From: Natrinema salaciae
GTDB taxonomy: Archaea; Halobacteriota; Halobacteria; Halobacteriales; Natrialbaceae
Assembly (NCBI RefSeq): GCF_900110865.1
Contig: NZ_FOFD01000002.1
Location: 430,835 to 494,834, forward strand
Length of the DNA: 64,000 bases
Direction of reading: 5' to 3'
The notes under the pieces were generated by a model, which saw nothing but the letters and a program-made list of their open reading frames with translations, did no database searches and was not told the DNA's origin. The position numbers and the translations under genes were made by a program. Position 1 is the stretch's first letter. Each line of letters begins with the position of its first letter. This document shows, in pieces, positions 4,787 through 8,720 of this stretch.

Positions 4787-5284
4787 ATCGAGTGGTACGA
4801 CGGTTCCGAGCGTCAAAAAGGATACTGTCACACCGTCGCGAGTATCGAAAGGTATCGACCGCTCGAAGCGGGTCGAGGACGATCGCGTTTCGCTCGAGCC
4901 TCACCATTCCAATCGAATTGGCAGGATTAAAATCGCAGTCTAGCGAGCGCTGCTGCGTTTGTTGGTGCAACTGTACGATCCATCCACCGACGGCCCCTCG
5001 AACGTCCTCGGGAAGAAGTATTCCCTGGCCAATTCCTTGTTTTCTAACACGAAAAGGATCCACTTGATAAGAAACAACGATGTGGAGAACAGAGAAGCGT
5101 CATGAAAGCCCCCAATTTTCGCCAGAGTACATCCAAACGGTTACTAGTTCAACGGTGCTCCTTAGCTCAGATGAACTAACAGATTTGCTACTTCTCAAAC
5201 GTCTATTGGCTAAGTATCTCCTAAGCTGAGTGAGGAATATTTATTACCCATATAGTTTAAATATATCTATGGTGAAGCAATAAG
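4787..5284. other. Gene-free stretch entering the A+T-rich island
   Basis: No credible coding frame on either strand. The left third is normal GC and contains the promoter side of the dCTP deaminase-like gene; from about 4900 the base composition drops and poly-A/T runs appear, leading to the promoter of the small membrane protein at 5285. I saw no tRNA-like cloverleaf or transposase remnant. Confidence 0.6.
5237..5275 (+). promoter_or_regulatory. Promoter and ribosome-binding site of the 129-residue membrane protein
   Basis: ATATTTATTA (5237-5246) is a TATA-like element and a second, TTTAAATATAT, lies at 5256-5266. GGTGA at 5271-5275, nine bases before the ATG at 5285, matches the anti-Shine-Dalgarno. 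The first TATA would give a transcript starting near 5268 with a short leader containing this site. Confidence 0.5.
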
Positions 5285-5674
5285 ATGGCTGGCTACCAGA
5301 TATCTAAGGAAACGAAGAAATTGCTCGAAAATTTACTTTTTGGAGCTAGCGGCATCGTGTTTACTTTTCTGATTGTCGGGGATATAATGGAGTACGTGGC
5401 CCTTATTTCTGATCGCTATCCGATGGTCCTTACAGGATCGTTGTTCGCTGTTTTCTCATTTTATTTTTTTGAGATTACAAAATGGGGATCAAAAATCGAT
5501 AAGCGATTCCGAAAGTCGATGATTTTTACGGCGGTTACATTAGTTATATTGTTTATATCCGTGGCTTATATCGTGATAAGTACAGAAGTTGTTACCCGCT
5601 CCTCGGTCGTCGTCTTCCTGATTGGGTATTCCCTAATGTTACCGATAATATCGTTGGTCGCTTATTTACGGTGA
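5285..5674 (+). CDS. Four-helix membrane protein beside the halocin-like gene (candidate immunity protein)
   Basis: 129 residues with four hydrophobic segments (about 18-36, 46-62, 80-100 and 106-127) joined by short charged loops, and a basic patch KWGSKIDKRFRKS between helices two and three. No family recognised. Codon use is A/T-rich and lysine/isoleucine-rich, unlike flanking genes, which points to recent acquisition together with its neighbour. It converges on the halocin C8-like gene, and the two 3' ends overlap by nine bases. By position and shape it could be a membrane immunity or accessory protein for that peptide, but this is inference only; no motif demonstrates it. Confidence 0.75.
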   Translation: MAGYQISKETKKLLENLLFGASGIVFTFLIVGDIMEYVALISDRYPMVLTGSLFAVFSFYFFEITKWGSKIDKRFRKSMIFTAVTLVILFISVAYIVISTEVVTRSSVVVFLIGYSLMLPIISLVAYLR

Positions 5675-6493
5675 ACCCGGGCCATACGATGAATCTGGGC
5701 CGCAGACCTCGTGCTCCACGAGCTCCGACGAGTCACAGAGATTACAATTCTCTTCATCTGCTACCTGCCAAATCCATACTCCTCCCTCTGCTAAACAAAG
5801 TATGACCCCAGCCCATCCACCACTTATTACGGCCAGTCCACAGCCACCATAAGCAAGTCCAATTGATGCGACGCAACTCCAATTAACATTATTACACTCT
5901 TCTGAAATATACTCTACACAATTTTCTCCATCAAGCGAGTCCTGGGTACTGATGTCAGATTTTGATGATATCTCCCTCGTATTTCCATCCGCATCGCCAA
6001 TGCTCAACGCTGACTCCGTAACTTTTCCGTTATTCTCAAACAGGCGTGTTTGTGTCTTCGCCGTATCATCAAGAATAGTTAACACACATCCGGGGGCAGA
6101 ATTACTTTCTTTATTGTTCCATGTTAAGAAGATGGACGAACTGTTTTCCGAATGCCGGTTCTTTTTCAGCCGGGAGTAATTGACTGTCACAACTCGGTAT
6201 TGGTTTTTCCCGGCGTCCGTTTTATTAGACTCGCTAACCTGAAATACGCTCCCTGTCTCCAATTCAGGATAGATCGGTTCATCGATATTGTCCTGTAACC
6301 GCTGAGCCTCTTCAGAAAAAATCACATCAAAAAGAATGTTTCGTTTTTTATGACCCTCTATTTTTTCTACGGTGCGATTTTTTTCGATTGCTGTCGCTCC
6401 TCCGGACAGACCTACAATTGACAAGCCTGCTAGACTAGCCGATCGGAGAACGTTTCTTCTGTTCAACGACCTTCTCTTACCTTTTTCTTTCAT
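5666..6493 (-). CDS. Halocin C8-like precursor (Tat signal plus Cys-rich C-terminal peptide)
   Basis: A 275-residue precursor. It begins with a twin-arginine signal, NRRNVLRSA at 11-19 followed by a hydrophobic LAGLSIVGLSGGATA stretch, so it is predicted to be exported folded by Tat. Residues ~37-185 are a charged, lysine/asparagine-rich proregion. The last ~85 residues form a compact Cys-rich domain with eight cysteines at 192, 200, 207, 218, 233, 250, 253 and 264 and glycine-rich hydrophobic helices between them. This plan (about 280 residues, Tat signal, long proregion, C-terminal disulfide-rich peptide) matches haloarchaeal halocin C8, whose known proregion confers immunity. The ATG at 6493 was chosen because a TATA box lies just upstream; the longer frame to 6547 starts before that TATA. 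Composition is A/T-rich. The peptide sequence is clearly diverged from halocin C8. Confidence 0.75.
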   Translation of the reverse strand: MKEKGKRRSLNRRNVLRSASLAGLSIVGLSGGATAIEKNRTVEKIEGHKKRNILFDVIFSEEAQRLQDNIDEPIYPELETGSVFQVSESNKTDAGKNQYRVVTVNYSRLKKNRHSENSSSIFLTWNNKESNSAPGCVLTILDDTAKTQTRLFENNGKVTESALSIGDADGNTREISSKSDISTQDSLDGENCVEYISEECNNVNWSCVASIGLAYGGCGLAVISGGWAGVILCLAEGGVWIWQVADEENCNLCDSSELVEHEVCGPDSSYGPGSP

Positions 6494-6811
6494 CTTCACA
6501 CAATAGTTAAAGCACCAACTATATATAACTTTCTGGGTGGAAACCACAAAGAATTAGTGGGCATTCTGATATTGGTGCCACTGATGTCGGCTTCATCCAC
6601 CAGGTCAAACCCTATAGCATCCGCCTCTCACCGCCTGTAAAGCCGTTGTGATGATAGGGCCAGCGTATGTCTCGGCTCGAGATCGAATGACTATCGGCCA
6701 CCTGTCGCATCCATCGTGTTCTGCAGCGATCCGTCTCCGGACAACGACACGCTGTTTTCGGCCAACGGTAAGCGAATCCACCCTATAGGGGCGGGTTTCC
6801 GCGCTGTACTG
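6494..6811. other. Gene-free stretch upstream of the halocin-like gene
   Basis: Contains the TATA element of the halocin-like gene on the minus strand and then returns to normal GC by about 6650, marking the right edge of the A+T-rich island. No convincing gene; a 28-codon acidic fragment on the minus strand near 6560-6640 starts directly after a stop and is too short to call. Confidence 0.55.
6519..6530 (-). promoter_or_regulatory. TATA element of the halocin-like gene
   Basis: Read on the minus strand this is AGTTATATATAG, centred about 30 nt before the ATG at 6493. It supports the 6493 start and rules out the upstream in-frame start at 6547. Confidence 0.6.
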
Positions 6812-7654
6812 CTATGAGAGTTCGGCCCGTTCGAACCGCCAGTAGCCGATCGCGATCGGGATGATTGCCCAAGCGAGCAACATCGCAAACCCGAACAGGT
6901 CGGGGCCGTGAACGCTGGCGACCGTTCCGTTCGCAGCGTTTTCGACGAGTTCCGCCATGTTGTATCGCGAACCGTCAAACACGTGAACGGGGTTGAGTCG
7001 GGTCGCGTAGAGATACCACGTCGGCCCGTCGGCAGTCACGATATGATCTAACCCCTGCGTGCTCGCGCTCCCGGTGAACAAGAGCGCGAAAATCGGAAGC
7101 ACGGTCGCTTCCCAGAGCGCCAGAAACAGGACGAACAACCCGACGATAGCGGCGACCGCTCGAGTCTCGCTCGAAACGCTGCTCGAGATGCCGACGGTCA
7201 TCCCGGTCCACGCGAACCCGTAGAGGAACAGGAGGGCCGCCGCGCCGACCAGTTCGTACGGATTGACGTTCTCGAGTCGCACGAACGAGAGGGCGATCAA
7301 CGTGACGACCGTGACCGACATGATGACCAGAAAGACGACCATTCGGCCGAGGTACTTGCCGAATACCACGTCGCGACGCCGTCCCGGAAGGCCGAGCAGA
7401 ATGCGTATTCGCCCCGACGTGCGCTCGCCGACGATCGACTTGTAGCCGAGAACGATCGCGACGAACGGAACGAACATCCCGAACGGATTGATCGCATACA
7501 GTATCGGGTTGTTCTCCGCTCGCTCGAGCAACGCTCCCGAGTCGTTCCACGCGAGCACGAGCACGAGCACCATGAGGGAGACGGCACCCCACAGGAGCCG
7601 GGATCGACTGGCGTCGGAGATATCCTTGCGCGCGATGGTTCCCATCTTGGTCAT
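6812..7654 (-). CDS. ABC transporter permease (NosY/ABC-2 type)
   Basis: 280 residues with about six membrane helices: one near 20-38, two at ~55-70 and ~105-128, then ~140-160, ~172-200 and a last one near 255-270. The cytoplasmic loop after the second helix, with GERTSGRIRILLGLPGRRRD, is the typical ABC-2 permease signature that contacts the ATPase. The start overlaps the stop of the ATP-binding gene by 4 nt (ATGA), so it is the second gene of a two-gene operon. Single ATPase/single permease exporters of this type move lipids, antibiotics or peptides; the substrate is not evident. It ends about 320 nt upstream of the halocin-like gene on the same strand. Confidence 0.9.
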   Translation of the reverse strand: MTKMGTIARKDISDASRSRLLWGAVSLMVLVLVLAWNDSGALLERAENNPILYAINPFGMFVPFVAIVLGYKSIVGERTSGRIRILLGLPGRRRDVVFGKYLGRMVVFLVIMSVTVVTLIALSFVRLENVNPYELVGAAALLFLYGFAWTGMTVGISSSVSSETRAVAAIVGLFVLFLALWEATVLPIFALLFTGSASTQGLDHIVTADGPTWYLYATRLNPVHVFDGSRYNMAELVENAANGTVASVHGPDLFGFAMLLAWAIIPIAIGYWRFERAELS

Positions 7655-8562
7655 GCGTACTCACCCTCGGCGGTGTACTCGCTGAACAGGTCTTCGAGCG
7701 ATCGGTTCTCGACGTCGATGTCGGTGACTGTGGCTCCGGCGTCCTCGACGCGATCGATAATCGTGGCCTTCATGCTCGGGTCCGAGCAGGAGATCCGGAG
7801 CGTTCCGTTGCCGCGTTCGACGCCGGTGACGCCGTCGAGATCGATCAGTCCGGGATCCGCGGGGACCGCATCGACCGACAGAACGAGCAGCGACTCCGCG
7901 CCGACGGACTCGTTCAACTCGTCGACCGTCCCCACCTTGCGGAGTTCGCCGTCGTCGATGATCCCGATACGGTCGCAGACCGACTCGACCTGCCCGAGAA
8001 TGTGACTCGAGAAGAAGACGGCGGTTCCACTGTCGGACTCCTCGCGAACGATCCGTCGAAGCTCCCGTGCACCGTTGGGATCGAGCCCGGAGGACGGTTC
8101 GTCGAGGATGAGCACGGACGGGTCACCGACCAGCGCCATCCCGATCGCGAGCCGCTGACGCATCCCCGTCGAGAAGCCCGAGACCGGTTTCTCGCCGTCG
8201 GTAGCGAGTCCGACCCGGTCGAGGATACGATCGGGATCGTCGTCGCTTTCGTGCATCTCGACGGCGAACTCGACGTGTTGTCGCCCGGTGAGCCTGTCGT
8301 AGAGCTGATAGCCTTCCGGGAGGACGCCGATTCGCTGTCGGATCGCCTGCGGATCTCGTTGCGTGTCGTACCCGAGGATCGAGGCCCGCCCGGCCGTCGG
8401 ACGGATGAAATCGAGGAGCATATTGATCGTGGTCGACTTTCCGGCGCCGTTCGATCCCAGGAACCCGAAGACCTCACCCTCCTCGACGGTGAGATCGAAT
8501 TCGTGGACGGCCGTGACCTCTCCGAACCGTTTCGTCAATCCGTGCGTTTCGATCGCAGCCAT
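7651..8562 (-). CDS. ABC transporter ATP-binding protein (NosF/CcmA type)
   Basis: 303 residues from the ATG at 8562 (a GTG four codons upstream is also in frame). Walker A is GSNGAGKST (about 40-48), the signature motif is SGFSTGMRQRLAIGMAL, Walker B is LILDEPSSGLDP, and the switch histidine is in FFSSHILGQVE. The C-terminal ~90 residues form the regulatory extension seen in drug/lipid exporter ATPases. It powers the permease encoded immediately downstream. An AT-rich stretch (about 8588-8610) upstream provides the promoter. Confidence 0.95.
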   Translation of the reverse strand: MAAIETHGLTKRFGEVTAVHEFDLTVEEGEVFGFLGSNGAGKSTTINMLLDFIRPTAGRASILGYDTQRDPQAIRQRIGVLPEGYQLYDRLTGRQHVEFAVEMHESDDDPDRILDRVGLATDGEKPVSGFSTGMRQRLAIGMALVGDPSVLILDEPSSGLDPNGARELRRIVREESDSGTAVFFSSHILGQVESVCDRIGIIDDGELRKVGTVDELNESVGAESLLVLSVDAVPADPGLIDLDGVTGVERGNGTLRISCSDPSMKATIIDRVEDAGATVTDIDVENRSLEDLFSEYTAEGEYA

Positions 8563-8720
8563 AGGCGAATCCACTCTCCCAACCCGTTTAATTTCTATTA
8601 TCCATAAGTATTGGTTTTACGCGTCGCCAGCGGCACACGGACGAGTGAACGAGGGTGAGATCGGATCGGCGCGTCCGCAGAAGCGGTAGCACTACTGTGC
8701 TCACGGTCGAACGGTCGCGC

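Follow-up and report, generated by a model that had tools for sequence, protein, structure and literature searches.

A candidate two-gene antagonism cassette with a halocin C8-type precursor plan in Natrinema salaciae

A pair of convergent genes in the haloarchaeon Natrinema salaciae raises the question of whether a precursor built like that of halocin C8 also carries a halocin C8 domain and protects its producer in the same way. To our knowledge, only a few peptide antibiotics of archaea have been characterised at the molecular level, and for halocin C8 a single gene is described to yield both the toxin and the immunity. The genes considered here lie in a 64,000-nucleotide stretch of DNA, referred to as the window, and their features are listed in Table 1. 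The reading that we favour, with confidence somewhat outweighing doubt, is a mobile two-gene antagonism cassette that comprises a Tat-exported precursor, a toxin peptide released from it and a membrane immunity protein.

Table 1. Features of the two-gene locus (positions within the window)
Feature	Positions	Strand	Basis or remark
Precursor gene, 275 aa, predicted Tat export, halocin-type proregion and eight-cysteine C-terminal domain	5666..6493	minus	Translation, homologue alignment
Twin-arginine signal region, residues 1-36, with LNRRNVLRSASLAGLSIVGLSGGATA	6386..6493	minus	Aligned with homologues
Proregion stretch, residues ~41-125, with homology to the proregion of the halocin C8 precursor, HalI helix-loop-helix region included	6119..6373	minus	Profile comparison
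C-terminal domain, residues 189-275 (87 residues), eight conserved Cys, NW-x-C and C-x2-C motifs; candidate toxin	5669..5929	minus	
TATA-like box TTATATATA of the precursor gene	6520..6528	minus	Ends 26 nt before the precursor ATG
Gene for a convergent 129-aa membrane protein, 3-4 predicted helices; candidate immunity protein	5285..5674	plus	Overlaps the precursor 3' end by 9 bp
TATA-like box TTTAAATATA of the membrane-protein gene	5256..5265	plus	19 nt before the membrane-protein ATG
Low-GC island, about 37-51% GC in 200-nt steps, holding exactly the precursor and membrane-protein genes	4950..6600		Edges approximate

The precursor and its proregion

Translation of the minus strand from the ATG at 6493 bears out the original prediction, which named no strand: the product has 275 residues and begins with a twin-arginine signal, followed by a charged proregion and, at the C-terminus, by an eight-cysteine domain of about 85 residues. 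The Tat motif, LNRRNVLR, was assigned by inspection; it is followed by a hydrophobic stretch and is seen also in homologue alignments. The proregion (residues 35-188) contains 25 D/E and 20 K/R and has a GRAVY of -0.83, and the C-terminal domain has a GRAVY of +0.18, with 13 D/E and not a single K/R. The cysteines of the domain are at positions 192, 200, 207, 218, 233, 250, 253 and 264, while the ninth cysteine of the protein, at 136, belongs to the proregion and is not conserved. The 26-nt distance from the TATA-like box to the ATG is a usual one for a leaderless haloarchaeal transcript. An AlphaFold model of the precursor has a pLDDT of 36.

The nearest homologue (L002/L072), from another genus of the same taxonomic family, is 42-43% identical over the whole protein and keeps 8/8 cysteines, so that the conserved cysteine pattern in homologues, set beforehand as a check, was found. 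Identity to this homologue at codon positions 1, 2 and 3 is 54, 68 and 31%, which shows that the precursor is under purifying selection as a protein. Judged by its sequence, 5666-6493 is a real, selected gene and not a chance frame.

The Tat signal and proregion appear to be distantly homologous to those of halocin C8-type precursors. Seven members of the window family and 24 precursors with the TIGR04449 domain were each split into proregion and domain for profile comparison. With the signal peptide excluded, hhalign aligned the two proregion profiles with Prob 93.5, an E-value of 2.3e-7 and a score of 47.2; scores were at most 14.4 in 99 column shuffles (0/99 as good) and 11.7 in the reversed control. 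The window-family profile also matches halocin C8-type precursors at E-values of about 1e-5 to 1e-7 over positions 5-125, which take in the Tat signal, and a class-wide profile search matched the halocin C8-type genes L050, L052, L053, L055 and L057 in the signal-plus-proregion part. Searching the window protein with the proregion model PF22862 (Hac8_like_N) gave no match at E<=10; one member of the window family, L006, matches it at 0.21. In the halocin C8 proregion, the counterpart of the aligned stretch, TVEKIEGHKKRNILFDVIFSEEAQRLQDNID, is the N-terminal part. According to the title of Mei et al. 2008, a reference in PMC11509114, an N-terminal helix-loop-helix is essential for HalI immunity, and by its position the TVEKIEGHKKRNILFDVIFSEEAQRLQDNID stretch may be the same motif.

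The C-terminal domain

The protein had been proposed to be a diverged halocin C8 relative with the same architecture, perhaps of a distinct type. This holds for the Tat signal and proregion, which are homologous, but is not supported for the C-terminus: in the suggested HMM search against halocin C8 profiles, TIGR04449 (halocin_C8_dom) had no match at E<=10 in the window protein or anywhere in its genome. The membership threshold of this model is 24 bits, and the positive controls L004 and L151 scored 48.1 and 33.7 bits. Comparison of the domain profiles by hhalign gave Prob 0.3 and an E-value of 0.18, with 12/98 shuffles as good; a trimmed alignment gave Prob 2.6 and an E-value of 0.017, with 0/60 shuffles as good, and an extended set gave no match to halocin C8 domains. 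The profile link between the domains of the window family and those of halocin C8 is thus not convincing.

The C-terminal domain is one of an unannotated family marked by a W-x-C motif. The class-wide profile search found L045/L074, L046/L075, L047/L076 and L049/L078 as members, and more weakly L048/L077. The core members have in common the motif C-x(5-8)-C-x3-N-[WLY]-x-C; after it comes a hydrophobic stretch rich in glycine and, in most of them, C-x2-C. Except for Cys253, the window cysteines (7/8) are invariant in a core alignment of seven members. A related domain is found in further Tat/proregion precursors (L147, L150, L159, L152, L160, L003 and L048), with an hhalign Prob of 75 and an E-value of 2.5e-5 against the window family (0/60 shuffles as good). 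One member of the family comes from Haloferax mucosum ATCC BAA-1512; a scan of genome contigs found only this species with the L076/L074 pair and no relative with A1.

No Pfam or NCBIfam model recognises the domain, and searches of Pfam, NCBIfam, PHROGs, PADLOC and PDB sequences returned nothing meaningful for the precursor or the membrane protein. The locus thereby points to a haloarchaeal domain family that current Pfam and NCBIfam models miss. These comparisons demonstrate no homology of the domain to a known toxin.

The membrane-protein partner and its low-GC setting

The membrane protein encoded at the 3' end of the precursor gene gives an all-helical AlphaFold model (pLDDT 59), and its gene, like that of the precursor, is under purifying selection. 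It has a counterpart of 37% identity in L072, likewise convergent, and a weak relative (E 4e-4) in L075, 1.85 kb downstream of the precursor. Another type of membrane protein is common to L074 and L076, and L073, L078 and L079 have others still.

By crude, hydropathy-based helix counts, a small gene with at least two hydrophobic helices lies 3' of the precursor at 8/9 loci of the family (the window, L072-L076, L078 and L079), in an orientation to the precursor that varies among them. The exception is L077, where there is no more than a 51-aa frame. Seven of the eight partner genes are within 600 nt of the precursor, and L075 was counted as the eighth because a transposase gene intervenes. By a comparable rule, a small multi-helix gene was found within 600 nt of 5/55 control genes and within 150 nt of 1/55.

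In L075 (4736-6587), the transposase gene separates the precursor from its presumed partner gene. L079 contains, around 5257-6219, a related precursor gene (L003) with an in-frame TGA, and an intact small membrane gene still follows it.

The possibility that all partners form one family was rejected; between loci, most of the membrane proteins show no recognisable homology, and immunity is therefore argued from position and size. The adjacent membrane gene, which the original prediction had missed, suggests that a separate protein confers immunity, whether in place of the proregion or in addition to it; the likeliest role of this protein is to protect the producer. Three clear relatives of the window membrane protein (L112, L113 and L117) stand alone with no precursor nearby, as expected of immunity genes, which often do so. 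These orphan copies are from one genus (L112 1477-1902, L117 1474-1896 and L113 1477-1914). Genome G092 carries one paired and one orphan copy.

Partner genes were also scored at other halocin C8-like loci. There were 42 distinct TIGR04449-type precursors, among them 14 with a strong Hac8_like_N proregion, the true halocin C8 kind. A small membrane gene follows none of these 14 but follows 20 of the 28 others, for which it was scored within 250 nt downstream (Fisher 7e-6, a test that ignores shared ancestry and uses a simple hydropathy rule). This suggests that only the halocin C8 branch has immunity through the proregion and that the remaining loci depend on a membrane partner. TIGR04449 loci with a small gene for two to four helices a short way downstream include L013, L019, L020, L030, L031, L124, L125 and L133. 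Similar toxin domains seem to be paired with similar partners in L013/L020/L030, in L019/L031 and in L021/L022/L023.

These counts bear on the alternative of a strict halocin C8-type system, in which the proregion alone immunises, as HalI does, and the gene for the membrane protein merely happens to lie beside it. That the conserved part of the proregion appears to be the very helix-loop-helix named in the Mei et al. title fits such a system; nevertheless, the recurrence of the membrane gene 3' of the precursor despite its varying orientation, and its distribution between the 14 and the 28 loci, make this explanation improbable.

The two genes coincide with the only low-GC island in the window, with a core of 43-44% (1-kb steps) against a window median of 65.6%. 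Their GC3 is 0.42 and 0.47, compared with 0.80-0.82 for the neighbours, and homologous precursor genes in other genera are likewise below their surroundings in GC. The cassette was probably imported. No borders of the island were found; a tRNA and inverted repeats are lacking around it, and so are direct repeats of a convincing kind. Plasmid, phage and viral-contig searches gave no relative of the cassette, and hence no evidence of a virus or known plasmid.

Just upstream of the precursor is an ABC transporter pair on the minus strand (6812-8574), with an ATPase gene at 7651-8574 and a permease gene at 6812-7654. This transporter was considered as an exporter and set aside, as its GC3 is host-like (0.80-0.81) and there is no evident counterpart beside L072. 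A close copy of the permease is missing from most genus mates, among which the best match is 43%.

An equally improbable alternative has the precursor serve no antagonism at all: it would be a secreted protein, rich in cysteine, that works at the surface, in signalling or with metals or redox, shares a halocin-type Tat/proregion, and has the membrane partner as its receptor or anchor. Such a role would agree with a C-terminal domain that has neither a recognised toxin relative nor a convincing link to halocin C8 profiles, but antagonism is the better fit to the patchy presence, the low-GC mobile context, the orphan partners and the highly diverse C-terminal domains, whose partners vary. That the membrane protein aids export, processing or folding of the peptide, as its gene's place beside the precursor might suggest, is the least probable of the three, given that the precursor has its own Tat signal, that orphan copies exist without a precursor and that partner families differ by locus, which fits cognate protection better than general processing.

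Proposed mechanism and related systems

What is observed at the locus is a gene structure with a Tat motif, proregion homology, conserved cysteines, a recurrent 3' membrane gene and a foreign composition. From the sequence, we infer cleavage, disulfides, killing, immunity and a target as follows. The precursor would be exported by the Tat route, with the proregion holding the toxin inactive during export. An extracellular protease would then cut ahead of the first domain cysteine, at about residue 189, a step modelled on halocins C8 and H4 (PMC12893001). The cut would set free a hydrophobic and acidic peptide of about 85 residues, rich in disulfides; it would kill other haloarchaea or inhibit them, with the membrane as the likeliest site of action. 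Expressed from a promoter of its own on the other strand, the small membrane protein would protect the producer.

Halocin H4 and HFX_0892 are secreted precursors activated by an extracellular serine protease, and the activity of HFX_0892 resides in its N-terminus (PMC12893001). Activation by a serine protease is a plausible route for the window precursor too, although the proteins themselves are different.

By its plan, the locus may be grouped with the halocin C8-type systems as a variant, but it is not placed in the halocin C8 domain family. It shares with the halocin C8 precursor ProC8 (283 aa) its length, Tat export, an apparently homologous helix-loop-helix proregion and a hydrophobic, Cys-rich C-terminus. 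It differs in a C-terminal domain that is not detectably homologous, with eight cysteines spaced otherwise and the NW-x-C and C-x2-C motifs, in having no TIGR04449 or PF22862 match, and in the separate small membrane gene that overlaps the precursor 3' end, such as none of the true halocin C8 genes examined has beside it. The locus thus appears to be a small case in which a halocin export and proregion module comes with another candidate toxin domain and with an immunity candidate encoded apart from it.

In bacterial class II type bacteriocins, a small secreted peptide is encoded next to a small dedicated membrane immunity protein. The window likewise pairs a secreted peptide with an adjacent small membrane protein, but its peptide would be acidic and Cys-rich and come from a large, Tat-exported precursor with a long proregion, and no sequence relation was found.

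More tentatively, and with the balance leaning slightly against it, haloarchaea may possess a polymorphic microhalocin system, in which a Tat and HalI-like proregion module is combined with interchangeable Cys-rich toxins and cognate membrane immunity proteins, and self-protection by the proregion, as in halocin C8, is the exception of one subfamily. Other TIGR04449 precursors with a small 3' membrane gene (such as L013, L019, L030 and L031) resemble that of the window in the Tat signal, a diverged proregion, a Cys-rich C-terminus and a small multi-helix gene just downstream. They differ in that their C-terminus matches TIGR04449 and that their partners are mostly in tandem and of other sequence families.

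L147, L149 and L150, from other genera, are Tat/proregion precursors with a proline-glycine linker and a W-x-C cysteine domain. Their C-terminus is extended by an acidic tail, and a 3-helix partner is encoded immediately downstream.
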